Positions 4,843-46,710 of a stretch of 64,000 bases of DNA are shown piece by piece. A program made the translations under genes and the position numbers. The stretch's first letter is position 1, and every line of letters starts with the position of its first letter. The DNA comes from Thermoleophilaceae bacterium (GTDB lineage Bacteria; Actinomycetota; Thermoleophilia; Solirubrobacterales; Thermoleophilaceae), in assembly GCA_040901445.1 (NCBI GenBank), contig JBBDYQ010000022.1, positions 124,001 through 188,000 on the forward strand. Direction: 5' to 3'. Under the pieces are notes generated by a model. It was not told where the DNA came from and ran no database searches. It saw only the letters and a program-made list of their open reading frames with translations.

Positions 4843-4903
4843 GGGGTCAGGTCTTGCAATCCAGCAGGGGTCAGACCCCTGCTGGATTGCAAGACCTGAC
4901 CCC
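4843..4903. repeat. perfect 30-bp inverted repeat, REP-like palindrome (copy 1)
   Basis: Left arm 4843-4872 and right arm 4874-4903 are perfect reverse complements around one base (A4873). The outer 20 bases of the arm, GGGGTCAGGTCTTGCAATCC, recur in the palindrome at 44290-44343. The inner part contains a second small palindrome, GGGGTCAGACCCC. It lies between two plus-strand genes and may also act as a terminator. The structure resembles a REP/BIME or a small MITE-like element. No transposase is visible in the window. Confidence 0.8.
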
Positions 4904-33503: not shown

Positions 33504-35597
33504 TTGACCGACTTCCTGACCGACTACGGGATCATCGTCGCGCTCGTCTGCGCCGGCGCCGCCGTGGTCTACGGCGTGACCACCTCGCGCTGGCTGCTCG
33601 CAAAGTCTCCCGGCAACGAACAGATGCAGGAGATCTCGGCCGCCGTGCAGGAGGGCGCGCAGGCCTACCTGCGGCGCCAGTACACGATCATCGGCTACGT
33701 AGCCGTGGTGCTCGCGATCCTGATCGCGATCGCGCTCAACATCGAGACCGCGGTTGGCTTTGCCATCGGCGGCCTGTTCTCCGCCGCGGCCGGCTTCATC
33801 GGCATGAACGTGTCCGTGCGGGCCAACTCCCGCGTGGCCGAGAGCGCCCGCGGCGGCATCGGCCCGGCGCTCGACGTGGCCTTCAAGGGCGGCGCGGTCA
33901 CCGGCATGCTCGTCGCGGGCCTCGCGCTGCTCGGCGTGGCCGGCTACTACGGGGTGCTGCTCCTGCTCGACGTGGACGAGAAGGACGCCATCGACGCGCT
34001 CATCGGCCTCGGCTTCGGCGGCTCGCTGATCTCGGTCTTCGCACGACTCGGCGGCGGCATCTTCACCAAGGCCGCCGACGTGGGCGCCGACCTCGTGGGC
34101 AAGGTCGAGGCGGGCATCCCCGAGGACGACCCGCGCAACCCGGCAGTGATCGCCGACAACGTGGGCGACAACGTGGGCGACTGCGCCGGCATGGCCGCCG
34201 ACCTGTTCGAGACCTACGCCGTCACCGCCGTCGCGGTCATGCTGCTCGGCGTCCTGACCTTCGACCAGATCGGCGCGGTGGCCGTCTACCCGCTTGTCAT
34301 CGGCGGCGTCTCGCTCATCGCCTCGATCATCGGCACCTTCGCGGTGCGCAGCAGCGCGGGGAATGTCGAGAACGCCCTCTACAAGGGCCTCATCGTCTCC
34401 GGCGTGCTCGCCGCGGCGGCGTTCCTGCCCATCACGCTCTGGCTGATGGACGACGTCACCTTCCAGGCCGACATCCTGGGCGGCGACTTCCTCACCGGGG
34501 GCGCGGCCGAGGCGGCCGGCGGCATCGACCTCTGGCTCTGCACGCTGATCGGCGTGGGCATCACGGCCAGCCTCTTCGTGATCACCGACTACTACACCTC
34601 CACGCGCTTCCGCCCGGTCAAGACCACTGCGGCGGCGTCGCAGACGGGTCACGCCACGAACATCATCCAGGGCCTCGCGCAGGGCTTCCAGTCCACCGCG
34701 GCCCCGGCCATCGTCCTGGCGCTGGGCATCCTCGCCGCCAACGAGCTCGCCGGCATCTACGGCATCGGCGTGGCGGTCATGGCGCAGCTCTCGCTCACCG
34801 GCCTGATCGTGGCGCTGGACGCGTTCGGCCCGATCACCGACAACGCCGGCGGCATCGCCGAGATGGCGGACCTGCCCGAGGACGTGCGCAACATCACCGA
34901 CCCGCTGGACGCGGTGGGCAACACCACCAAGGCGGTCACCAAGGGCTACGCGATCGGCTCGGCCGTGCTCGCGGCGCTCGTGCTGTTCGCCGCGTTCGTG
35001 GTGGAGCTGGAGGAGGAGGCCCTGCACGAGGGCGAGAGCCTCCTGTCGTTCGACATCTCCCAGCCCGAGGTGCTCGTCGGCCTGCTGATCGGCGGCATGA
35101 TGGTCTACGTCTTCGCCGCGTTCTCGATCGAGTCGGTCGGCCGCGCCGCCGGCGGCGTGGTGGAGGAGGTGCGCCGCCAGTTCCGCGAGAAGCCGGGGAT
35201 CATGGAGGGCACCGAGAAGCCCGACTACGCCCAGTGCGTCTCGATCGTCACCCGGGCGGCGCAGCGGGAGATGATCCTGCCGTCGCTCATCCCGATCGTG
35301 ATTCCGGTCGTCGTCGGGCTGCTCTCCTACCAGGCGCTCGGCGGCCTGCTGATCGGCGTCATCGTCGTGGGCTTCTTCGCCGCGGTCTCGATGACGGCGG
35401 GCGGCGGTGCCTGGGACAACGCCAAGAAGCTGATCGAGGACGGCGAGTACGGCGGCAAGGGCTCCGAGGCCCACGCCGCGTCGGTCACGGGCGACACGGT
35501 GGGCGACCCCTACAAGGACACCGCCGGCCCCGCCATCAACCCGATGATCAAGGTGGCGAACATCGTCGCCCTGCTGATGATCCCGTTCCTGGTCTAG
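33504..35597 (+). CDS. hppA: membrane proton-pumping pyrophosphatase
   Basis: 697 residues, TTG 33504 after a strong ribosome site. About 16 membrane helices. HppA hydrolyses pyrophosphate and pumps protons across the membrane. The substrate-binding loops [49 protein letters not shown] and [17 protein letters not shown]-like motifs (here [21 protein letters not shown]) are intact. At GNTTKA the residue is Lys476. Lys here is the mark of potassium-independent enzymes, while Ala marks potassium-dependent ones. A terminator follows at 35628. Confidence 0.95.
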
Positions 35598-35749: not shown

Positions 35750-36124
35750 TCATCGGCGCTGCAGGGCGACTATCGCCGGCGGCAGCGCCAGCTCGACAAC
35801 GAGAAGAGCCCGCTGCGCCGGATGCGGCGCGCCGTGCGCCGCCCAGCCGCCCGCGCGGGCCAGACCGGCCAGCATGAGCGCGCCGGCGGCGCCGCGCACC
35901 GCATCCGGATGCCTTCCGTGGCGACGGGCCACGCGCAGGAGCGTCAAGCCGTACGCCGCGTAGAACGCGCCGTAGTAGCGCAGCTCGCTGTCCACGGCGG
36001 CGTTCGCGCGCTGGTCGCCCGGCACGGAGCGCACGCCGCGGAGCATGGTGTCCATGCCCGCGGTGCTGGCGACGGCGCCGCCGGCCGTGAGGATCGCCCG
36101 CAGGGCGGCGGCGCGCGCGGTCAT
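35750..36124 (-). CDS. DUF4345-like membrane protein
   Basis: 124 residues from ATG 36124, which overlaps the stop of the Fic gene (ATGA). Three or four hydrophobic helices are visible. The sequence TMLRGVRSVPGDQRANAAVDSELRYYGAFYAAYGLTLL is characteristic of DUF4345, a small four-helix membrane family of unknown function. Coupling to a Fic gene is unusual and may be accidental, but the four-base overlap shows the two are co-translated. Confidence 0.65.
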   Translation of the reverse strand: MTARAAALRAILTAGGAVASTAGMDTMLRGVRSVPGDQRANAAVDSELRYYGAFYAAYGLTLLRVARRHGRHPDAVRGAAGALMLAGLARAGGWAAHGAPHPAQRALLVVELALPPAIVALQRR

Positions 36125-37170
36125 GGCGTCACTCGACGCCACCGTGCGCTAGGTCCGGCGCCATCCGCGACTATCTGCTTGTCGTCGCGCAGTTCGTTGA
36201 GCACCAGGCGGATGGTGGCGGGGCTGACATCTGGGAGGGCGTTCTCGATGTCGCGCCGCCTGAACTGCTCCGGCACTTGCTCGAGGATGTAGCCGCGGAC
36301 GCGGTCCTGCTTGCTTCCCCGTTGGTCGGTCGCCGCGGCCACCCGCCGTTCGAAGTCGTCATACGCGCCCGCCAGGATCTGCGCGAGGTACGAAGCCCAG
36401 GGCCAGATGTCGTGCTTGCCGTCGCGCCAACCGCGCTGCGATTGGTAGAGGCGGTCGTAGTACGTGTTCCTCGACTCGAAGATGCGTTGCTCGACGCTGA
36501 CGTAGCGTGCCACTCCATAGCCGTAGGAGAGGAGTTCGTGGGTGGTGAGGAGACGCGCAAGTCGACCATTGCCGTCCGCGACGGGGTGGATGGCCAGGAA
36601 GTCGACCACCAGCGCGGCTATCAGCACCAGCGGATGAGTCCGCCCTTCCCGCTTGAGCTCCTCGTAGCGAACGAACAGCTCCGTGAGAAGAAACTCCGTC
36701 TGGTCCGGTCCAGGAGGCGTGAAGATCACTTCTCGCGAGCCGCTCTCGTAGGAGGCGATCAGGTTCTCCTCTGTCTTCAGGTATCCGCCCCTGCCTCCGG
36801 CGTAGTAGAAGAGCTGTCGGTGGAGATGCAGGATGAAGGGCACCGTCAGGCGCCCCTGGCCATCAGCTCGCATCATGGCGTCGACCGCATCCCGGTATCC
36901 GGCGAATTCCTGCTCATTTCGGTTGCGGTACCGCGAGCCTCCCTTGGCGATTCTCTCCGCGCGAGCCGTTTCGACCGCCACTCCCTCGATGGCGTTCGAC
37001 GCGGTGATCGACGCAATCCGCGCATGCTCCGAGAGCCGCTTCAGCAATTCGGGTCGCTGGTCGCGGAACAGCTGCTCCTGACCTCGCCCGGTGTCGATGC
37101 GGGCGAGCACAGCGCCCAATTCGCGGGGCTGGTCCCCAAAGGTTCTGTCAAGGTCGACGAAGCTCTTCAT
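36121..37170 (-). CDS. Fic-domain AMPylase-like protein with C-terminal winged helix
   Basis: 349 residues from ATG 37170. The catalytic Fic motif is HPVADGNGR (195-203), identical in all key positions to HPFxxGNGR except V for F. The N-terminal helix carries SNAIEG (58-63), which fits the inhibitory [S/T]xxxE[G/N] motif, so it is a class II Fic with built-in autoinhibition. Residues about 290-345 form a winged-helix DNA-binding domain (SPATIRLVLNELRDDKQIV). Base composition is less GC-rich than its neighbours, suggesting transfer. Fic proteins usually transfer AMP to Ser/Thr/Tyr; the target is unknown. The operator upstream suggests autoregulation. Confidence 0.82.
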   Translation of the reverse strand: MKSFVDLDRTFGDQPRELGAVLARIDTGRGQEQLFRDQRPELLKRLSEHARIASITASNAIEGVAVETARAERIAKGGSRYRNRNEQEFAGYRDAVDAMMRADGQGRLTVPFILHLHRQLFYYAGGRGGYLKTEENLIASYESGSREVIFTPPGPDQTEFLLTELFVRYEELKREGRTHPLVLIAALVVDFLAIHPVADGNGRLARLLTTHELLSYGYGVARYVSVEQRIFESRNTYYDRLYQSQRGWRDGKHDIWPWASYLAQILAGAYDDFERRVAAATDQRGSKQDRVRGYILEQVPEQFRRRDIENALPDVSPATIRLVLNELRDDKQIVADGAGPSARWRRVTP

Positions 37171-37226
37171 CGTGCTAATGGGACCGATAATCGTGCTAAT
37201 CGGGGCGAAATTAGCACGACTATCGG
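37171..37226. promoter_or_regulatory. inverted/direct repeat operator of the Fic gene
   Basis: CGTGCTAAT occurs at 37171-37179 (touching the Fic start codon) and 37192-37200, and inverted as ATTAGCACG at 37210-37218. The second and third copies belong to a larger palindrome, 37184-37200 against 37210-37226, matching at 16 of 17 positions around a nine-base spacer. The region is far more AT-rich than its surroundings. It is a strong candidate binding site for the winged helix of the Fic protein. Confidence 0.7.
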
Positions 37227-37305
37227 ACGTGATCAGCACCTTGGGGCGCTCGGCCGATGCCGCGCTCCTCTGGATCGAACTGGCAGCGCAATCCTGGACA
37301 CCGCG

Positions 37306-37311
37306 TAGACT
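37306..37311 (+). promoter_or_regulatory. -10 box TAGACT and ribosome site of the acylase gene
   Basis: TAGACT is followed 18 bases later by GTG 37330, with ribosome site GGGAGG at 37319-37324. This gene therefore has a short leader, unlike the leaderless genes. Confidence 0.45.
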
Positions 37312-37329
37312 CCCGCTCGGGAGGCAGCC

Positions 37330-40089
37330 GTGCGGGAACGTCCACACCGGCTCACGATGCGCGCCGTGGTCGCGTCGCTTGTGCTGCTCGCAGCGCTTCC
37401 GGCCATGGCGGCCGCCCAGCCCGAGCCGCAGCCCTACGGCACCAACGACTTCGGCGGCTTCCACGACATCCTGCCGCCGGGCACCGACGGCAGCGCCAAC
37501 CTCGGCGAGCTGGCGGCCTTCCTGAGCGGCGGCACGCGGCCGCTGCACAACGACGACCAGCTGGACATGTACGGCGATCTGGTGTTCAAGGCGCCGGGCC
37601 TGCAGGCCTCGGAGCTCGAGAGGTACTTCAAGGACTCCACCTTCGGCGTGCAGGGGGAGGTGGAGCGCCGCTACAGCCCGCGCGAGGACGTGACCATCAC
37701 GCGCGACTCCGCCTTCGGCGTGCCGCACGTCTACGGCGCAACCCGGGACGGGGCCATGTTCGGCCTGGGCTACGTTGCCGCCGAGGACCGCCTCTTCCTG
37801 ATGGACGCGCTGCGCAACGTCGGGCGCGCGCGGCTGTCGAGCTTCGCCGGTGGCGCGCAGGGCAACCGCGACTTCGACAAGGACCAGTGGTCGGTTGCGC
37901 CCTACACGGAGGCGGACCTCCAGCGCCAGGTGGACGCCTTCGTGCGCTTCGGCCCGATCGGCGAGCAGGTCCGCCGCGACGCGGCCAACTATGTCGCGGG
38001 CGTGAACGCCTACATCTCCGAGGCGCGCGCAGACCCGTCGAAGATGCCGGGCGAGTACGCGGCCATCGGCCGGCCGGGAGGGCCGGATGACTGGAACGAG
38101 CGCGACATCATCGCCACGGCGGCGCTCGTGGGCGGGATCTTCGGCAAGGGCGGTGGCGGGGAGCTCACCCACGTGCGCATCCAGGAGGCGCTGCGCAAGC
38201 GCTTCGGCCGCAGCCGCGGAGACCGGCTGTTCCGGGACTTCCGCGCCGCCGAGGACCCCGAGGCGCCCACCACCGTCACCGGACGCCGCACATTCCACTA
38301 CGCGGTCCGTCCGCGGCGCCCGCGCGGGAAGGTGATCCCCGACGAGGGGTCGCTGGTCGACGAGCCGCAGGTGACCGGCCAGACCGGCTCGGCGGCGGAG
38401 AGCAGGTCGGCTTCGGGCGCCCGCGGCCCCCTCGACGGCATCCTCGGCGGCCCCGCCAAGCTCCCCGGCGCCAACTCCAACGCGCTGCTGGTGTCCGGGC
38501 GCGAGTCGGAGTCGGGCCACCCGCTGGCGGTGTTCGGGCCCCAGACCGGCTACTTCGCCCCGCAGCTGCTCATGGAGCAGGACGTGCACGCACCCGAGAC
38601 CGAGGCCGGCCCGGCCATCGACGCCCGCGGCGCCGCCTTCGCGGGCACCAACCTCTACGTGCAGCTCGGCCACGGCCGCGACTACTCCTGGAGCGCCACC
38701 TCGGCGGGGCAGGACATCATCGACACCTACGCGGTGGACCTGTGCGAGCCGGACGGGTCGGCGCCCACGCTCGAGTCCGAGCACTACCGTTACCGCGGCG
38801 AGTGCCTGGAGATGGAGACGCTCACGCGCACCAACTCGTGGCAGCCCACGGTGGCGGACGGCACGCCGGAGGGGAGCGAGACGCTGGTCCGCAAGCGCAC
38901 GAAGCTCGGCCTGGTGGCCGCGCGCGGCACGGTGCGCGGGCGCCCGATGGCGTTCACCGAGCTGCGGGCCACCTACTTCCACGAGATCGACTCTGCCACC
39001 GGCTTCCTGGACTTCAACACCCCGGACCGGATGCGCAACGCCGACGACTTCATGCGCGCGGCCAACAAGATCCTCTACACGTTCAACTGGTTCTACGCCG
39101 ACGACCGCGACATCGCCTACTTCAACTCGGGCGCGAACCCGGTCCGCCCTCGCGGCGTGGACGGCGACTTCCCGATCCTCGCGCGACAGGCGTATGAATG
39201 GCGCGGCTTCAACCCCGACCTGAACACCGCCGACATCACCCCGCAGGACGAGCACCCGCACGTCGTCAACCAGTCCTTCCTCACGAGCTGGAACAACAAG
39301 CAGGCGCGCGGCTATCGCGGCGCGGCGTTCAACGGCTTCACGTCGCTGTATCGCAGCCGGCCCCTGGACGACCGCGTTCGCAGGGGCATCCGCGGCAGCC
39401 GCAAGATGACCCTGGTCGAGCTGATCGACGCGATGGCCGACGCCGGCACCGTCGACCTGCGCGGCTCGCACGTGCTGCCCTGGGCGCTCAAGGTCATCGG
39501 CCGCCCGAGCGACCCGGACCTGGCGAGCGCGGTCAACCAGCTGCGCGCCTGGGCCATCACCGGCGCGCACCGGCGCGACCGCAACCGTGACGGCACCTAC
39601 GAGCACAGCGACGCGATCCGGATCATGGACGCCTGGTGGCCGAAGCTGTTCCGCGCCGTGTTCGAGCCCGTGCTGGGCGAGGAGATGATGGGCTTCCTCG
39701 GCGCGGCCAACGGCTTCGACGACGCCAACCGCGTGCACCACATCGGCTCGTCGTTCCAGGGCGGCTGGTACGGCCTGGTGCACAAGGATCTGCGGGCGGT
39801 GCTCGGCCGCCGGGTGCGCGGGGGCTACTCGCGCGAGTTCTGCGGCCGCGGAAACCTCCGGCGCTGCCGGGCGGCGCTGCTCGACTCGCTCCAGGAGGCG
39901 ATGCGCGTGCAGGAGGCCGCCCTCTACGCGGACCCCACCTGCGCCGAGGCGGGCGAGCCCGGCGACCAGGACTGCCTCGACAGGATCGAGCATTCGGCCA
40001 CCGGCGGCATCACGCAGCCGCTGATCCCCTGGATCAACCGGCCGACGTATCAGCAGGTCGTGGAGATCCAGGCGCACCGGCCGCGGTAG
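37330..40089 (+). CDS. secreted penicillin-acylase-family N-terminal nucleophile hydrolase
   Basis: 919 residues from GTG 37330. Signal peptide at 1-30 (LAALPAMAAAQ). The alpha chain includes TITRDSAFGVPHVYGATRDGAMFGLGYVAAEDRLFLMD. A linker (about 330-380) precedes the autoprocessing site; Ser383 in GANSNALLVSG is the expected N-terminal nucleophile of the beta chain. The family cleaves amide bonds of penicillins, cephalosporins or acyl-homoserine lactones. At 919 residues it is longer than penicillin G acylase (about 850). Ser, oxyanion Asn and the overall layout are consistent with activity; the substrate is not determined. Confidence 0.82.
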   Translation: MRERPHRLTMRAVVASLVLLAALPAMAAAQPEPQPYGTNDFGGFHDILPPGTDGSANLGELAAFLSGGTRPLHNDDQLDMYGDLVFKAPGLQASELERYFKDSTFGVQGEVERRYSPREDVTITRDSAFGVPHVYGATRDGAMFGLGYVAAEDRLFLMDALRNVGRARLSSFAGGAQGNRDFDKDQWSVAPYTEADLQRQVDAFVRFGPIGEQVRRDAANYVAGVNAYISEARADPSKMPGEYAAIGRPGGPDDWNERDIIATAALVGGIFGKGGGGELTHVRIQEALRKRFGRSRGDRLFRDFRAAEDPEAPTTVTGRRTFHYAVRPRRPRGKVIPDEGSLVDEPQVTGQTGSAAESRSASGARGPLDGILGGPAKLPGANSNALLVSGRESESGHPLAVFGPQTGYFAPQLLMEQDVHAPETEAGPAIDARGAAFAGTNLYVQLGHGRDYSWSATSAGQDIIDTYAVDLCEPDGSAPTLESEHYRYRGECLEMETLTRTNSWQPTVADGTPEGSETLVRKRTKLGLVAARGTVRGRPMAFTELRATYFHEIDSATGFLDFNTPDRMRNADDFMRAANKILYTFNWFYADDRDIAYFNSGANPVRPRGVDGDFPILARQAYEWRGFNPDLNTADITPQDEHPHVVNQSFLTSWNNKQARGYRGAAFNGFTSLYRSRPLDDRVRRGIRGSRKMTLVELIDAMADAGTVDLRGSHVLPWALKVIGRPSDPDLASAVNQLRAWAITGAHRRDRNRDGTYEHSDAIRIMDAWWPKLFRAVFEPVLGEEMMGFLGAANGFDDANRVHHIGSSFQGGWYGLVHKDLRAVLGRRVRGGYSREFCGRGNLRRCRAALLDSLQEAMRVQEAALYADPTCAEAGEPGDQDCLDRIEHSATGGITQPLIPWINRPTYQQVVEIQAHRPR

Positions 40090-40210: not shown

Positions 40211-42091
40211 GTGGCGGAGCGCAGGCCAAAGCATCAGGGGCTCGAACGCGTGCTCGGCACCGGTGCCCTGTTCAGCACCGCCTACGGCAACGTGGGCAGC
40301 TCGATCTACTACGCGCTCGGGCTGGTGGCCATCTTCGCGCTCGGCCTGACGCCGGTCGTGTTCCTCATCGCCGGGCTGATCTTTATCTGCACGGCGGCCA
40401 GCTACACGGAGGCCACGACGATGTACCCCGAGGCCGGCGGGTCCTCCTCGTTCGCGCGCCGCGCGTTCAACGAGCTCGCCTCGAACGTGACGGCGTGGGG
40501 CCAGATGCTCAACTACATCATCACGGTCGCCATCTCGGCGTTCTTCCTGCCCCACTACCTGGGCGTGATCTGGGAGCCGCTGCTCACCGCGCCAGCCGAC
40601 ATCATCGTCGGGATCGGGGTGGTGGTGTTCCTCGCCGTCATCAACGTGGTGGGCGTCCAGGAGGCGGCGCGGCTGAACGTGGTGCTCGCGGTCGCCGACT
40701 TCTTCACCCAGCTCGCGCTCGTGATCCTGGGGATCGCCCTCGTGCTCTCCCCGGAGACGCTGGTGGACAACGTCGACTTCGGCGTCTCGCCCACCTGGAC
40801 GGACTTCCTCATCGCCGTCCCGGTGGGGATGGTGGCGTTCACGGGCATCGACACGATCTCGAACATGGCGGAGGAGGCGCGCGACTACGGGAACACGATC
40901 CCGCGCGCCATGCGCCTCGTGGTGATCGCCGTGATGACGATCTCGCTCACGCTGCCGGCGGTCGCGTTGTCGGCGATGCCGGTGGAGGACGGCCAGACGC
41001 TGTTGTCGGTCACCGGCGAGGACGGCTTCGCCGACAACCCCATCCTCGGCGTGATCAGCAACATCGAGCTCGGGCCGCTGCAGGACGCGGCGGAGGTCTA
41101 CGTCGGCCTCCTGGCGGCCACGATCCTGCTCGTGGCCACCAACGCGGGGCTGATCGGGCTCTCCCGCCTGAGCTATTCGATGGGCCAGTACCGTCAGCTG
41201 CCCGAGCAGCTGAGGCAGCTGCACCCGCGCTTTCGCACGCCGTACGTGGCCATCCTCGTGTTCGGGTTCGTGGCCTGCCTCGCGATCCTCCCCGGGCAGG
41301 CGGAGTTCCTCGGCACGATCTATGCCTTCGGGGCGATGCTCTCGTTCACGGTGGCGCACGCCGCCGTGATCGCACTGCGCATCAAGGAGCCCGATGTCGA
41401 ACGTCCCTACCGCGTGCCGGGGAACGTGCGCATCCGGGGCCGGAGCGTGCCGATCGTCGCGGTGCTCGGCGGCCTGGGCACCGGGGTCTCCTTCGTCGCG
41501 GTGAGCGTGCTCAACGTCGAGACGCTCGTGGCGGGCACGATCTGGCTGAGCCTGGGCGTGGCCACCTACGTCGCCTATCGCCGGCGGCAGGGCCTCTCTC
41601 TGACGGACACGGCGAAGGTCGTGGTCCCGAAGGCCGCCGTGGAGGAGGAGGTCGAGTACGACTCGATCCTCGTGGCGTTCGAGGACGGGCAGTACTCGCG
41701 CGAGGCGGTGGCCACGGCCATCAAGCTCGCGGCGCGGCGCCGGCGCGGCATCCACGTGCTCATGACGATCGCGGTCCCGGCCACCTCGCCGATCGACGCG
41801 CCGCTGCCCGACGCGGAGCAGCAGGCGCAGGCCGCGATCGACTCTGCCCGCGTGCTCGGCGGACGGCGCGTGACCGGCCACTGGGAGAAGGTGCGTTCCG
41901 GCCAGGCGGGGCGTCGCGTGGTGGACGAGGCGGTGGACATCCGCGCCCGGGCCATCGTGATGACCGTGCCGCGGCGGCGGGCGGGCGCGTCGGTGCTCGG
42001 GCGGACCATCGAGACGGTGCTGGCCGAGCGGCCATGTCGCGTGATCGTGGACTCTTCGCCGGCGGGCCGAGAGGGCCGCGAGGCGGCGTAA
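40211..42091 (+). CDS. APC-family permease with C-terminal USP-like domain (1)
   Basis: 626 residues, GTG 40211. Twelve membrane helices in about 1-470, beginning with the substrate-helix motif TAYGNVGSSIYYALG and including EAGGSSSFARRAFNE. These are typical of amino-acid/polyamine/cation (APC) permeases. Residues about 490-626 form a soluble domain with YDSILVAFEDGQYSREAVATAIKLA and RAIVMTVPRRR, like universal stress proteins. This fold is also used as the cytoplasmic domain of APC transporters regulated by nucleotides. The transported solute is unknown; the downstream TrkA-type proteins make a cation such as potassium worth considering. Confidence 0.75.
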   Translation: MAERRPKHQGLERVLGTGALFSTAYGNVGSSIYYALGLVAIFALGLTPVVFLIAGLIFICTAASYTEATTMYPEAGGSSSFARRAFNELASNVTAWGQMLNYIITVAISAFFLPHYLGVIWEPLLTAPADIIVGIGVVVFLAVINVVGVQEAARLNVVLAVADFFTQLALVILGIALVLSPETLVDNVDFGVSPTWTDFLIAVPVGMVAFTGIDTISNMAEEARDYGNTIPRAMRLVVIAVMTISLTLPAVALSAMPVEDGQTLLSVTGEDGFADNPILGVISNIELGPLQDAAEVYVGLLAATILLVATNAGLIGLSRLSYSMGQYRQLPEQLRQLHPRFRTPYVAILVFGFVACLAILPGQAEFLGTIYAFGAMLSFTVAHAAVIALRIKEPDVERPYRVPGNVRIRGRSVPIVAVLGGLGTGVSFVAVSVLNVETLVAGTIWLSLGVATYVAYRRRQGLSLTDTAKVVVPKAAVEEEVEYDSILVAFEDGQYSREAVATAIKLAARRRRGIHVLMTIAVPATSPIDAPLPDAEQQAQAAIDSARVLGGRRVTGHWEKVRSGQAGRRVVDEAVDIRARAIVMTVPRRRAGASVLGRTIETVLAERPCRVIVDSSPAGREGREAA

Positions 42092-42094
42092 GAT
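42089..42094 (+). promoter_or_regulatory. -10 box TAAGAT before the small membrane protein
   Basis: TAAGAT overlaps the permease stop codon and is seven bases before GTG 42102, so the second half of the cluster can start its own leaderless transcript. Confidence 0.4.
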
Positions 42095-42101
42095 CGCGCC
42101 C

Positions 42102-42284
42102 GTGGAGCGTGCTTACCGCCAGTTCACCCGCGCGAGCGGCGCCCTGATCTCGCTGCTCGGGGTGGCGCTGGTCGTCGTCACCATCGGCCGCGGCGGCGGG
42201 CCGCTGGCGCTCGGGGTGATCTGCGGCATCTGCCTCGCGCTGTTCGGCGCCGGACGGGTGCTGCTGGCCCGCGACGGCGCGTGA
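42102..42284 (+). CDS. 60-residue membrane protein between two permeases
   Basis: GTG 42102, 60 residues, with two hydrophobic helices at about 12-28 and 33-54 separated by GRGGG. It overlaps the next permease gene by four bases (GTGA). Its position between two paralogous transporters suggests a small accessory subunit, but no family is recognised. Confidence 0.6.
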   Translation: MERAYRQFTRASGALISLLGVALVVVTIGRGGGPLALGVICGICLALFGAGRVLLARDGA

Positions 42285-44287
42285 AAGCCGGGGGCGACGG
42301 CCGCGGGCGGCTCGGCGGCGCGCGCCTCCCGCGCGGTCTGACGGGCCCGGCCGCCGAGGCGGAGCTGGCGGTGGCGCGCGGGCTGGGAGCGCCCGCGCTG
42401 TTCGCGATCGTGGTGAGCACGGTCGGCGCGTCGATCTACTTCGCGCTCGGCGTGGTGGCCAAGGACGCGCTCGGGCTCACCCCGCTGGTCTTCCTCATCG
42501 CAGGCGGATTCCTCATCGTCACGATGTGGACCTACGTCGAGGGCAACTCGCTACACCCGGAGCGCGGCGGCGCCTCGGCCCTGGCGCGCTACGCCTTCAA
42601 CGAGCTCTGGAGCTTCATCGCCGGCTGGGCGATCCTCCTCGATTACCTGATCGTCCTGTCGGTCGGGGCCTTCGCGCTCTCCCACTACCTGCAGGCGTTC
42701 TGGGCCCCCGCGGGCGAGTCCGGCATCGAGATGGCGATCACCGCCGCGGCGATCGGCTTCGTCGCGTGGTCCAACATCCGTGGCGGCATCTCCACGGGGC
42801 GGCTGAACACGGCCGCGCGGGTGGGCTTCGTGAACCTGCTGCTGGCCGTCGTGCTCATCGTGGCCGGGCTCGTGGTGGCGTACGAGCCGGGTGAGATCGT
42901 GGACTCGATCGACCTGGGCACCGCCCCGGAGTGGGACGACCTCGTGTTCGCGGCGGTCGTGGCCACGGTGGCCGTCACGGGCATCGATGCGGCGTCCGGG
43001 CTCGCCGGCGAGCTGCGCGTGGGGCGCCGCAAGCTGCGGCGCTTCCAGTTCGCGTCCACGGGCGTGGTGCTGTTCACGCTCGTGGGCCTGTCGGTCGTGG
43101 CGCTGATGGCGGTGCCGGCCGTGGACGGCTCGACCGCGCTCGGCGAGGAGTTCATCGACGCGCCGGTGCTCGGGATCCCGGCCGCGTACGAGCCGGTGTG
43201 GCTCAGCGACGTGCTGCGCTACTCGGTGGGCGCCGTCGGCTCGCTCGTGCTGCTGCAGGCCATGAACGTGAACATGCTCGGGATCTCGCGGCTCTCGTAC
43301 GCGCTGGCCACGCACCGCCAGATACCGAGCGCCCTGGGCCGGCTGCATCCGACCTTCGCCACGCCGTACGTCACGATCGGCATCGCGTCCGTGGCCGCGT
43401 TCGTGCTGGCCATCGGGGACGTCGAGTTCCTCCTCGGGCTGTTCGCCTTCGGGGCGATGCTGGCCTTCACCATCGCGCATGTGTCGGTGATCGTGCTGCG
43501 CTTCCGCGAGGGGGACCGCCACGTGGCGTTCCGGGTCCCGCTGTCGGTCCGCGTGCGCGGCGTGTCGCTGCCGTTGCCGGCCGTGGGCGGCGCGCTGTTC
43601 GCGTTCGCCGCATGGGTGAGCGTGGTGGTGCTGCACGAGGGCGCGAGCATCGCCGGCGCGGTGTGGATGGCGGCCGGGCTGCTGCTCTACGTCGTCTACC
43701 GCAAGTCGCAGGGCAAGACGCTGGGAGGGCGCTTCGTGATCTCCGCCGAGGCGCTCACGGAGTCGCGCGGGGTGGAGTACCAGAGCATCCTCGTGCCGGT
43801 GTTCGGGGAGTCGATCGACGACGACATCGTGGGCACCGCAGGCCGGCTCGCCGCGGAGGGGTGGGAGGAGGGCGAGGGCGGCCCGATGATCGAGGCGCTC
43901 TACGTCATCGAGGTGCCGATGTCGCTGCCCATCGACGCGCGGCTCCCGGAGGAGGCGATCAAGACGGGGCGCACCGCGCTCGCGCGCGCCAAGCAAGTGG
44001 GGGAGGAGTACGAGAACGTCGAGGTGGCCACCGCGCTCGTGCGCGGCCGCGCTGCCGGGGCCACGATCGTGGACGAGGCCCGCCGCCGTGGCGTGCAGGC
44101 CATCGTGCTCGGCGCGGAGCGCCCCACGCGGATGCGCGGCGGCGTGCTGCTCGGCGGTCGCGGGCGGGCCCGCGACCGCGTGGTGGGTGAGGTCACGCAG
44201 TACGTGGTCGAGAAGGCGCCCTGCCGCGTGATCCTCACGGCGCCGCCCGCGGGCGAGCAAGACGCTCGCGTGGGGGTTCGCCCGTGA
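42281..44287 (+). CDS. APC-family permease with C-terminal USP-like domain (2)
   Basis: 668 residues, GTG 42281. A paralogue of the permease at 40211: VVSTVGASIYFALGVVAKDALGLTPLVFLIAG aligns with the first one, and PERGGASALARYAFNELW corresponds to its EAGGSSSFARRAFNE. Twelve helices span about 35-490. The C-terminal domain (about 515-650) is USP-like, with YQSILVPVFGESIDDDIVGTAGRLA and VQAIVLGAERPTR. A longer Arg/Gly-rich N-terminus precedes the first helix. It is followed by a palindrome and then the two TrkA-like genes. Confidence 0.75.
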   Translation: MKAGGDGRGRLGGARLPRGLTGPAAEAELAVARGLGAPALFAIVVSTVGASIYFALGVVAKDALGLTPLVFLIAGGFLIVTMWTYVEGNSLHPERGGASALARYAFNELWSFIAGWAILLDYLIVLSVGAFALSHYLQAFWAPAGESGIEMAITAAAIGFVAWSNIRGGISTGRLNTAARVGFVNLLLAVVLIVAGLVVAYEPGEIVDSIDLGTAPEWDDLVFAAVVATVAVTGIDAASGLAGELRVGRRKLRRFQFASTGVVLFTLVGLSVVALMAVPAVDGSTALGEEFIDAPVLGIPAAYEPVWLSDVLRYSVGAVGSLVLLQAMNVNMLGISRLSYALATHRQIPSALGRLHPTFATPYVTIGIASVAAFVLAIGDVEFLLGLFAFGAMLAFTIAHVSVIVLRFREGDRHVAFRVPLSVRVRGVSLPLPAVGGALFAFAAWVSVVVLHEGASIAGAVWMAAGLLLYVVYRKSQGKTLGGRFVISAEALTESRGVEYQSILVPVFGESIDDDIVGTAGRLAAEGWEEGEGGPMIEALYVIEVPMSLPIDARLPEEAIKTGRTALARAKQVGEEYENVEVATALVRGRAAGATIVDEARRRGVQAIVLGAERPTRMRGGVLLGGRGRARDRVVGEVTQYVVEKAPCRVILTAPPAGEQDARVGVRP

Positions 44288-44289
44288 AG

Positions 44290-44343
44290 GGGGGTCAGGT
44301 CTTGCAATCCGACATCGGTGTCGGATTGCAAGACCTGACCCCC
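44290..44343. repeat. 25-bp inverted repeat, REP-like palindrome (copy 2)
   Basis: Perfect arms 44290-44314 and 44319-44343 enclose TCGG. The outer 20 bases, GGGGTCAGGTCTTGCAATCC, are the same as in copy 1 at 4843, but the inner bases differ (GACA against AGCAGGGGTC). It occupies almost the whole gap between the permease and TrkA-like gene 1 and probably works as a terminator. Confidence 0.8.
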
Positions 44344-44347
44344 TAGG

Positions 44348-44353
44348 TAGAGT
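44348..44353 (+). promoter_or_regulatory. -10 box TAGAGT of TrkA-like gene 1
   Basis: TAGAGT is followed by seven bases and ATG 44361. This favours ATG 44361 over a GTG nine bases upstream. Confidence 0.5.
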
Positions 44354-44360
44354 GGAATCG

Positions 44361-44792
44361 ATGTTCGTACTGATCTGTGGATGCGGCCGCGTGGGCTCGT
44401 CGGTCGCCAAGAGCATGCTCGCGGAGGGCCACGAGGTATCGGTGCTCGACGAGGACCCCGAGGCCATCGCCCTGCTGGAGAAGGGGGCGGAGCAGAGCTG
44501 GGAGGACATGGGCGGCTCGTTCACGGTCGGCACGGCGCTCGAGGTGGACGCGCTCGTGGAGGCCGGAATCGAGCGCGCCGACGCGTTTGTCGCCTCCACC
44601 GACGGCGACAACACCAACCTCGTCATCTCGCAGATCGCCCAGCGCCGCTACCGGATCGCCAAGGTGGTCGTGCGTGTGCTCGACCCCGCGCGGGCCGAGT
44701 GGTACGGCGAGCAGGGGCTCCTCACCATCTGTCCCACCAAGACGGCCATCGAGCTGCTCGAGGCGGCCGTCCGCGAGGAGGCTCGCGCCTGA
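44361..44792 (+). CDS. TrkA-N (RCK) protein 1, N-domain only
   Basis: 143 residues from ATG 44361. MFVLICGCGRVGSSVAKSMLAEGHEVSVLDEDPE is a Rossmann NAD(H)/nucleotide-binding RCK domain (GxGxxG at residues 7-12), and D-G-D-N-T-N follows in ASTDGDNTNLV. The TrkA-C (RCK_C) ligand domain is absent. RCK proteins gate Trk/Ktr potassium channels from the cytoplasm. It overlaps RCK gene 2 as TGATG, so the two probably form a heteromeric ring. No TrkH/KtrB membrane subunit is present, only the APC permeases. Confidence 0.8.
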   Translation: MFVLICGCGRVGSSVAKSMLAEGHEVSVLDEDPEAIALLEKGAEQSWEDMGGSFTVGTALEVDALVEAGIERADAFVASTDGDNTNLVISQIAQRRYRIAKVVVRVLDPARAEWYGEQGLLTICPTKTAIELLEAAVREEARA

Positions 44793-45472
44793 TGTACATG
44801 CTCATCGTGGGAGCCGGGAAGGTCGGCTGGAACCTCGCGCGCGAGCTGATGGAGAAGCACCACGAGGTCACGGTCGTGGAGTCCGACCCGGCACGCTACG
44901 CCACCGTCGAGGAGGAGATGGAGCACGCCGTGCAGTACGGCGACGGCTCCGAGCTGTGGGTGCTCGAGCGCGCCGGCATCGAGCGGGCCGACATGGTGAT
45001 CGCCGTCACCGGCGACGACGAGGACAACATTCTCATCTGTCAGGTCGCGCGCGAGAAGTACGGCGTGGAGCGGGTCATCTCGCGCTGCAACAACCCGCGC
45101 AACCTCCAGCACTTCGAGCTGCTCGGCATCAAGCCGGTGGTGTCGGCCACTGACCTCATCCTCCGCCTGATCGAGCACGAGGTGCCCAAGTACGGGCTCG
45201 TGCATCTGCTGGACCTGCCCACCGAACGGCTCGAGATCATCGAGGTCGAGGTGGCCGCGGAGTCGGCGGCGGCCGGCACCGCGGTCAAGGACCTCGGCCT
45301 GCCCGACGGCTCACTCGTGATCTCCATCCTGCGCGACGGCACGGGCTTCGTGCCGCTGGCCGACTCCGTCGTGGAGGCCGGTGACGAGGTCCTGCTCGTG
45401 CTCGACACCGGGCTCGAGGAGCGCATAACCGCGCGTTTCACCAGCCAGGACAGCCAGCCGGAAGCCGCCTGA
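44792..45472 (+). CDS. TrkA-N/TrkA-C (RCK) protein 2
   Basis: 226 residues from ATG 44792. The N-domain MYMLIVGAGKVGWNLARELMEKHHEVTVVESDP has GxGxxG and a ribose-binding acidic residue. AVTGDDEDNILICQVAREKYGVERVISRCNNPRN follows. The C-domain (about 140-215) has the TrkA-C beta pattern (IIEVEVAAESAAAGTAVKDLGLPDGSLVISILRDG). It is a complete one-domain-pair RCK protein, as in KtrA. The nucleotide or c-di-AMP ligand cannot be told. Confidence 0.85.
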   Translation: MYMLIVGAGKVGWNLARELMEKHHEVTVVESDPARYATVEEEMEHAVQYGDGSELWVLERAGIERADMVIAVTGDDEDNILICQVAREKYGVERVISRCNNPRNLQHFELLGIKPVVSATDLILRLIEHEVPKYGLVHLLDLPTERLEIIEVEVAAESAAAGTAVKDLGLPDGSLVISILRDGTGFVPLADSVVEAGDEVLLVLDTGLEERITARFTSQDSQPEAA

Positions 45473-45477
45473 GGGCC

Positions 45478-46710
45478 TTGGCGATCCGGGAGGTCGACCA
45501 CCTGCTGATCGGCGGCGGCCTGGCCGCGGCGAACTGCGCGCGCTGGCTGCGGGAGGAGGGCGCCGACGGGAGCGTGATGCTGGTCGGGCGCGAGCCGGAC
45601 CCTCCCTACAGCCGGCCGCCGCTCTCCAAGGACTACCTGCGGCGCGAGAGCTCGCGCGAGGACGCCCTCTTCCGGCCGGGCGACTGGTGGGAGGAGCAGT
45701 CCATCGAGCTGCTCACGCGCACGAGCGTGATGAAGCTCGACGCCGAGGCCCGCACGGTCAAGCTCTCCAATGACGAGGAGCTGTCGTTCGGCAAGGCCCT
45801 GATGGCCACCGGCGCCAACGTCCGCCGGCTGCGCGTGGACGGCTGCGATCTCGACGGGATCCACTACCTGCGCGCGTTCGCCAACTCCGACGCGATCCAC
45901 GAGGACGCCGAGAGCGCCGAGCGCGTGGTGTGCATCGGCGGGAGTTACATCGGCACGGAGGTGGCGGCATCGCTCACGGCGCTCGGCAGGAAGGTGTCGA
46001 TCGTGATGCAGGAGGAGGTCACGCTCGACCGCTTCTACGGGCGCGAGGTGGGCGGCTTCTTCCAGGCTGCGCTCGAGGAGCACGGGGTCACGATCCACGG
46101 GTCGGACGAGCTGGAGCGCTTCGAGGGCTCGGACGGGCGGGTCGGGAAGGTGGTCACGAAGGCCGGGGTGGAGATCGAGTGCGACATGGTGGTGATCGGC
46201 GCCGGGGTGATGCCCGACGTGATGCTCGCACGGGGCGCGGGGCTGGAGCTGGGCGAGGCCGGCGGCGTGCTTTGCTCCTCGCGCCTCGAGAGCTCCGTGC
46301 CTGGCGTGTACGCGGCCGGCGACATGTGCGAGTACGAGAGCGTGCTGCACGGAGGCCGGCCGATGCGCATCGAGCACTGGGACGTGGCGTTCAACCAAGG
46401 CAAGACCGCGGCGCTCAACATGCTCGGCCGCGACGTGCCGCACGACACCGTGCCCTACTTCTTCTCCGACCTCGCCGACTGGACGTCGATGGAGTACGTC
46501 GGGCCCGGCTCGGGCGACGCCGTCATCCGCGGCTCCGTGGACGACGGCGAGTTCACTGCGTTCTATGTGGACGGCGAGGATCGCGTGACCGCCGCCTTGA
46601 CCGTCGGCCGCTCGGACGACCTCGAGCACGCGCGGCGCTTCATCGCGGCGGGCTCGAAGCCCGGCCGGGGCGCGCTGGCCGACATCGGCAGCAACCTGGC
46701 CGAGCTGTAG
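45478..46710 (+). CDS. FAD/NAD(P) oxidoreductase, ferredoxin-reductase-like
   Basis: 410 residues from TTG 45478, five bases after RCK gene 2. IGGGLAAANCARWL is the FAD-binding motif and YSRPPLSKDYL is the hallmark of the rubredoxin/ferredoxin reductase (BphA4, AIF-like) group. VVCIGGSYIGTEVAASL is the NAD(P)H site and GVYAAGDMCEY the second FAD site. The C-terminal domain (about 320-400) is of the reductase_C type. It probably passes electrons from NAD(P)H to a ferredoxin or quinone; no ferredoxin or oxygenase gene is adjacent. Confidence 0.82.
   Translation: MAIREVDHLLIGGGLAAANCARWLREEGADGSVMLVGREPDPPYSRPPLSKDYLRRESSREDALFRPGDWWEEQSIELLTRTSVMKLDAEARTVKLSNDEELSFGKALMATGANVRRLRVDGCDLDGIHYLRAFANSDAIHEDAESAERVVCIGGSYIGTEVAASLTALGRKVSIVMQEEVTLDRFYGREVGGFFQAALEEHGVTIHGSDELERFEGSDGRVGKVVTKAGVEIECDMVVIGAGVMPDVMLARGAGLELGEAGGVLCSSRLESSVPGVYAAGDMCEYESVLHGGRPMRIEHWDVAFNQGKTAALNMLGRDVPHDTVPYFFSDLADWTSMEYVGPGSGDAVIRGSVDDGEFTAFYVDGEDRVTAALTVGRSDDLEHARRFIAAGSKPGRGALADIGSNLAEL

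Follow-up and report, generated by a model that had tools for sequence, protein, structure and literature searches.

An actinobacterial operon encoding two APC-USP permeases and two RCK proteins: a candidate RCK-regulated cation transporter

Gene content of the operon

This study concerns five adjacent genes, termed A, S, B, R1 and R2, within a 64,000-nucleotide stretch of DNA (the window; positions 124,001 to 188,000 of contig JBBDYQ010000022.1) from a Thermoleophilaceae bacterium. The source genome (G000; 3.54 Mb in 25 contigs, completeness estimate 100%) is that of a soil-type actinobacterium. All five genes were open on the + strand at the coordinates given for them beforehand (Table 1). 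The open reading frames (ORFs) and Pfam matches confirmed the content listed in a prior reading of the DNA made from its letters alone (the sequence-only reading), i.e., two APC-USP permeases, a 60-residue membrane protein and two RCK proteins. A and S were separated by 10 bp, S and B overlapped by 4 bp, B and R1 were separated by 64 bp, and the R1 stop and R2 start codons overlapped by 1 bp (TGATG).

TrkA_N was the sole RCK domain in R1, which bears out the earlier statement that this protein lacks the ligand-binding C-domain; R2 carried TrkA_N and TrkA_C, and its closest PDB relatives were TrkA and, next, TM1088B. Translation of R1 probably starts at the ATG at 44361, because aligned relatives begin at the same MFVLI.

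Table 1. Features of the operon and its surroundings (window coordinates)
Feature	Coordinates	Strand	Basis or remark
Permease A	40211..42091	+	Pfam AA_permease_2 + Usp; best match of model KimA; TM1 comparison
S, 60-aa two-helix membrane protein	42102..42284	+	small two-helix ORF in 51/53 A-B tandem loci
Permease B, APC-USP paralogue of A, variable TM1	42281..44287	+	Pfam AA_permease_2 + Usp; structural matches; residues
REP-like palindrome in the B-R1 gap	44291..44342	.	not counted within the system
R1, RCK N-domain only	44352..44792	+	TrkA_N only; start of relatives
R2, RCK N-domain + RCK C-domain	44792..45472	+	TrkA_N + TrkA_C; PDB relatives
Ferredoxin/dioxygenase reductase-like flavoprotein	45478..46710	+	Pfam Pyr_redox_2 + Reductase_C; synteny
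Membrane-bound pyrophosphatase (H_PPase)	33504..35597	+	Pfam PF03030, E 1.8e-261

Conservation and co-distribution in relatives

The sequence-only reading had called for a check of the pairing across genomes, and the pairing proved to be conserved. A scan of named genome records covered 101 relatives, from which 80 loci were kept; these were labelled mostly Thermoleophilaceae or Solirubrobacterales/-aceae, others Actinomycetota only, and a few odd labels (Chlamydiae, Bifidobacterium breve) were taken for mislabelled bins. A and/or B lay within 6.5 kb of R1-R2 in 71/80 loci (A and B in 52; B with no A there in 19). Scored over the same distance, and with some contigs ending close to the pair, the loci held A and B (30), A, B and a pyrophosphatase (22), B and a pyrophosphatase (11), B alone (8), a pyrophosphatase alone (5), none of these (2) or no intact pair (2). 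R1 was present in 27/31 genomes of the family; TrkH was found in four of the 31, on contigs other than that of the RCK pair.

We also searched a phylum sample of 246 genomes, 22 of them from the class of the window, with an A profile (E <= 1e-60) and with R1, for which E <= 5e-36 was counted as strong. A matched 13/246 genomes, all within the class; the same 13 genomes, and no others of the class, had a strong R1. The other nine class genomes were without A, and of these six had no R1 match and three had weak matches only (1e-9 to 1e-10). The p value for this co-occurrence was 2e-6 under an assumption of independent genomes, which these are not.

Potassium transport genes of the genome

TrkH was said earlier to be absent from the cluster, and it had no match in the whole of genome G000 either, using a search that found TrkH in 11/14 known genomes serving as positive control. 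Kup (PF02705) and KdpA (PF03814) likewise had no match in G000, nor did a KimA-type profile (E <= 1e-10). Within the order of the window the KimA profile gave no strong match in 14 genomes and weak matches in five (1e-11 to 1e-15), of which one or more lay at A; strong matches were obtained in 19/79 class genomes. Because the TrkH, Kup, KdpA and KimA searches of G000 were negative, A and B are the only candidates found for concentrative K+ uptake, and a system outside the searched families is possible. The genome encodes one diadenylate cyclase (DAC) domain, for cyclic di-AMP (c-di-AMP).

One K+ channel (Ion_trans_2 + TrkA_N) is present, on contig C15, and the RCK ring could act upon it, the position of R1-R2 in the operon being incidental. 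We regard this as very improbable: an RCK domain is already part of the channel protein, the gene lies apart from the operon, and A shares its distribution with strong R1 in the sampled class genomes.

Permease A resembles Kup in the first transmembrane segment

The AA_permease_2 profile matched A with E 1.2e-38 and B with 1.5e-30. This match is uninformative on substrate, because the profile also recognises four KimA-like proteins. AlphaFold models of A and B had pLDDT (predicted local distance difference test) values of 85.5 and 84.7. The top structural match for the A model was KimA (Z 44.1, 511 residues aligned, root-mean-square deviation [rmsd] 15.5), and the next family was ApcT (Z 41.9, 411 aligned, rmsd 2.6). 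The KimA matches of both models covered membrane and cytosolic domains, and we think that their high rmsd may come from the placement of the domains.

Transmembrane segment 1 (TM1) of A reads A24 Y25 G26 N27 V28 G29 S30 S31 I32 Y33 Y34. The Kup signature YGDIGTSPLY corresponds to YGNVGSSIYY in A, and E. coli Kup VVYGDIGTSPLY aligned without gaps with A TAYGNVGSSIYY. This segment of A matched Kup apart from a change of D to N, with the tyrosine at the position of KimA Y43 retained as Y34. In the register used, KimA D36 corresponds to N27 of A and to T47 of B or its neighbour, and Y43 to Y34 of A. This register was taken from the starts of the model alignments with KimA structures (permease-KimA residues 21-30, 13-22 and 16-27 for A, offsets 9, 9 and 11; 41-30, 31-22 and 37-27 for B), and it fails if a gap falls between those starts and residue 36. 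A second register, from MAFFT and hhalign, was set aside, since the model alignment starts and the gap-free match of A with Kup favour the first.

The pattern G[DNE][ILV]G[ST]S fitted 36/37 rows of the A alignment and also E. coli Kup, and fitted none of five E. coli and none of three haloarchaeal amino-acid-type permeases. YGNVGSSIYY itself occurred in 35/37 A rows. The other two rows, from second permeases of class relatives (L187, L192), have YDEIGSSIYF and YGEIGSSLIF, in which Glu stands where KUP has the Asp. The segment G-x-G-I-F, the TM1 substrate-backbone motif of amino-acid permeases, was absent (GSSIYY in A, GASIYF in B); E. coli PuuP and CadB also are without an exact copy of it. 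In the TM1 comparison with KimA and amino-acid permeases proposed earlier, A was Kup-like and its TM1 not clearly of amino-acid type, with Asn in place of the Asp.

For KimA, PMC6994465 reports that D36A/N and Y43A abolish uptake, that E233 couples protons, and that D117 is proposed as a sensor of internal K+. The residues T121, S125, T230, N237 and Y377 were retained in 48/48 A relatives; the E233 position was E in 46 and D in two, and is D in the window A. Between the two permeases, only A kept the proton residue position E233 together with the gate residues T121 and Y377. A further likeness of A to KimA/KUP (B. subtilis KimA 6S3K, E. coli Kup) is the APC fold joined to a C-terminal cytosolic alpha/beta domain. 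The operon differs from KimA/KUP in having two paralogues and a small subunit. RCK control of KimA itself is not described in the literature looked at.

In KCC4, according to PMC7200160, K+ is held by the backbone of N131 and I132 (TM1), the TM6 backbone and Y216. Because K+ is bound there partly through the TM1 backbone at an Asn, the TM1 carboxylate would be dispensable in some APC-fold K+ transporters. The A model matched the cation-chloride cotransporters KCC4/NKCC1 over both domains (Z 33-35), but these are distant in sequence and coupled to chloride. No RCK protein is known to act with KCC4 or NKCC1.

Haloarchaeal APC-USP permeases share the APC and USP-type architecture; they are about 25% identical and have an amino-acid-type TM1 (GTMI[GA]AGIF in 3/3). 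Two of them (L304, L305) are plasmid-borne and lie beside genes for TrkH, USP and Lrp/AsnC-type regulators, the annotation of one regulator mentioning potassium ion transport; a TrkA gene is present at L305 too, and the third permease (L306) is without such neighbours.

Permease B and the small protein S

KimA was the top match of the B model (Z 39.5, 516 residues aligned, rmsd 11.0), tied with ApcT and BasC at 39.3. B retained D121 and D236, the latter being E in relatives. Among 70 B relatives, the position of KimA D117 was D in 70/70 and that of E233 was E in 70/70, but D in the window B; the T121 position held V, L or I, and the Y377 position Y or F.

S had no Pfam family match. Of the 53 tandem A-B loci, 51 had a small two-helix ORF between the two permease genes, compared with 1/53 on the reverse strand and 0/53 in shuffled controls, and we rejected the explanation that S is a chance ORF. 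A search by similarity to S itself detected it in only 30/53 of these tandem loci.

The R1-R2 pair and a possible two-subunit ring

TM1088A and TM1088B of Thermotoga maritima comprise a two-subunit TrkA gating ring with a solved structure; PMC4380455, which describes it, also points out homologues in Actinobacteria, including a two-subunit TrkA homologue in M. tuberculosis. R1-R2 follow the same gene pattern, i.e., an N-only and an N+C RCK gene that are adjacent and overlap at their stop and start codons. A mixed R1-R2 ring, as suggested by the sequence-only reading, now has this precedent, and by analogy R1 (N-domain) and R2 (N- and C-domain) may form a 4+4 ring. The two systems differ in partner: TM1088A/B act with TrkH (TM1089), whereas no TrkH was found in the window genome.

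RCK pairs beside other transporters across the phylum

The R1 profile (E 1e-8) matched 204/246 phylum genomes, and TrkH was found in 136/246. We scored 119 neighbourhoods, one per genome, hand-picked from the stronger of the 204 matches, so that counts lean to strong hits; 117/119 held an intact RCK pair, and several had more than one. The nearest transporter was assigned from its likeness to a small set of reference proteins, with the pyrophosphatase set aside. Within 1 kb it was KimA-like in 52 loci (49 over 250 bits), a P-type ATPase in 28, TrkH in 11 and A/B in 7; beyond 1 kb it was KimA-like in 7, a P-type ATPase in 1 and A/B in 1. Three loci had a pyrophosphatase only and seven had no transporter. 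P-type ATPase and pyrophosphatase labels were given by Pfam for 10 proteins and by similarity for the rest. RCK genes next to TrkH or KtrB in relatives without the permeases had been named as evidence that would tell against the permeases as partners; the 11 TrkH loci belonged to other lineages only, and none was in the class of the window.

In other actinobacteria, the position next to an RCK pair that A and B hold in the window is taken by KimA-like genes, e.g., beside the pair in Nonomuraea gerenzanensis and about 2.3 kb off in Streptomyces sp. BHT-5-2. Among 71 KimA-like ORFs (>250 bits) at phylum loci, D36, S40, Y43, Y118, T121 and E233 were present in 71/71 and Y377 in 70 (one gap). An RCK pair also was seen beside P-type cation ATPases at L190, L191, L195-L199, L203-L205, L219 and L307 (actinobacteria, including a Streptomyces plasmid); Streptomyces fungicidicus plasmid p1 is an example of the order ATPase-TrkA-TrkA.

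The first RCK gene was short (aligned part <175 aa) in 24/24 A/B-linked pairs and 7/9 labelled with a pyrophosphatase, and full length in 51/52 KimA-linked pairs (the other being a match fragment), 35/35 ATPase-linked and 13/13 TrkH-linked. It was short as well in pairs without a labelled transporter within 1 kb, including those of G174 and G185. We had considered that a short R1 was confined to the class of the window; this was wrong, since L188 (G174) and L190 (G185), both outside the class, also are short. Each has an N-only first RCK gene with no A nearby, and L188 is without a labelled transporter in reach. In an R2 tree (FastTree, many long branches; we draw from it no conclusion on which partner came first) the partner labels clustered, requiring 24 changes compared with a mean of 88.3 after shuffling. 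The RCK pair looks like a swappable cassette, because its partners vary (KimA-like, P-type ATPase, TrkH).

The pair could instead belong with the membrane pyrophosphatase, in which case A, S and B would be separate genes of the neighbourhood. This enzyme was directly upstream of a pair without A/B in 5/80 loci and in three class genomes, and 36 of the 117 phylum loci that hold an intact pair had it no more than 6.5 kb away; in the other 81 there was none over that distance (some contigs end sooner). In the window, 8.8 kb and several other genes separate the end of this copy from R1, whereas B is 64 bp off, and A is co-distributed with strong R1 in the sampled class genomes. We consider the pyrophosphatase an improbable true partner. 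Loci with the pyrophosphatase directly upstream of the pair and no A/B within 6.5 kb are L184-L186, L115, L117, L119, L123 and L127.

Mycobacterial CeoB and CeoC

CeoB and CeoC of M. tuberculosis are treated as a Trk uptake system in PMC12136442, PMC6375644 and PMC13163235; their text does not mention TrkH or a permease, and PMC13163235 puts forward Rv3200c and Rv3237c as potential further K+ transporters. Three loci (L224, L225, L280) were 81-89% identical to CeoB/CeoC, and each had a KimA-like gene divergently adjacent, approximately 97-144 bp off. We presume that in M. tuberculosis this gene is Rv2690c, which is not mentioned in the literature found on Rv2691/Rv2692. CeoB/CeoC resemble R1-R2 in being an adjacent RCK pair and differ in that the partner is KimA-like, not A/B, and in that both CeoB and CeoC carry the C-terminal part, unlike R1.

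Paired actinobacterial RCK genes might be a general cassette placed on at least four unrelated ion transporters (the KUP/KimA and A/B permeases, P-type ATPases, TrkH and perhaps the membrane pyrophosphatase), the missing CeoBC membrane subunit being the adjacent KimA-like permease. We put this forward tentatively, as having a little less than an even chance. It offers a candidate, open to experiment, for the membrane protein with which CeoBC would act; the reports consulted describe a K+ role of CeoBC and name no such partner.

Interpretation of the operon

We suggest, at even chance, that the operon specifies a cation transporter under RCK control, most likely K+/H+, in which an APC/KUP-fold permease takes the place of TrkH/KtrB and B is a degenerate partner. 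That the RCK pair and A/B form one functional unit we consider probable; K+ as the substrate is a fair bet. This is the RCK action on APC permeases that was proposed earlier for a potassium or other cation/amino-acid system. It has gained from the lack of a TrkH match in the genome, the conserved pairing, the co-distribution and the KimA-like partners with an intact K+ site elsewhere, and has suffered from the loss of the essential Asp in both A and B.

Several observations weigh against this interpretation. The essential TM1 Asp of KUP/KimA (Kup D23, KimA D36) is Asn27 in A and Thr47 in B, and B relatives have mostly Ala, Ser or Val at this position; in the register chosen by MAFFT and hhalign the site is Gly or Asn. 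The Kup-type TM1 pattern fitted 0/19 KimA-like rows and 0/36 B rows. The KimA D117 position is Asn in A and N in 43/48 A relatives. In sequence, A matched amino-acid transporters better (7ccs, E 3.7e-20) than it did KimA (8.4e-7), B likewise, and A, B and KimA formed separate, well-supported clades in an unrooted tree. E/D214 and N218 of A are seen in amino-acid permeases also. At the level of genomes, G174, G185 and G263, all outside the class, had an equally strong R1 (E 7e-42 to 2e-36) without A; A was on a different contig from the pair in G119, G162, G259 and G085; in three class genomes with A on another contig the pair was beside a pyrophosphatase, and the pair of G085 had no nearby transporter.

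The sequence likeness, the Asn at the KUP Asp, the tied B model and the AEE that follows TM6 in A and is shared by several amino-acid permeases would suit a system in which A and B carry an amino acid, an amine or another organic osmolyte and the ring tunes them to the K+, nucleotide or c-di-AMP state. We think this rather unlikely, with TM1 of A being Kup-like and free of G-x-G-I-F, RCK pairs elsewhere lying mostly beside ion transporters, and no other K+ importer found in the genome.

If the operon is an RCK-regulated cation transporter, A would be the transporting subunit, with its KUP-like TM1, and binding of a nucleotide or c-di-AMP to the R1-R2 ring would open or shut transport by A. B, which has lost the TM1 site and retained the equivalents of D117 and E233, could pair with A in a dimer and serve there as the regulatory protomer, KimA being a homodimer. 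S may be a small membrane subunit, and the linked pyrophosphatase might feed the proton gradient, i.e., the proton motive force.

RCK rings have been described chiefly in the gating of channel-like K+ systems. If such a ring controlled a permease of the KUP/APC fold, which works by alternating access, the RCK principle would reach into secondary transport, and this would account for K+ uptake in organisms without TrkH, Kup or Kdp. No pairing of RCK proteins with APC, USP or KimA permeases, a P-type ATPase or a pyrophosphatase was found in the literature, judged mostly from listings. No part of the system is categorically new; the combination and the swappable-pair pattern were not found in the literature looked at.

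Neighbouring genes and elements

The flavoprotein reductase gene begins 5 bp after R2 and is found 3' of R2 in close relatives too. The pyrophosphatase gene is upstream of the A/B/RCK genes in many relatives, in many of them approximately 2-4 kb nearer to A than in the window, where other genes intervene. Between it and A (36121-40089) are a penicillin-amidase-like gene and a - strand gene with a Fic-like motif spotted by eye. The palindrome between B and R1 (repetitive extragenic palindromic [REP]- or miniature inverted-repeat transposable element [MITE]-like; GGGGTCAGGTCTTGCAATCC...) has a second window copy at 4843-4903, and its hairpin could lower R1-R2 expression.

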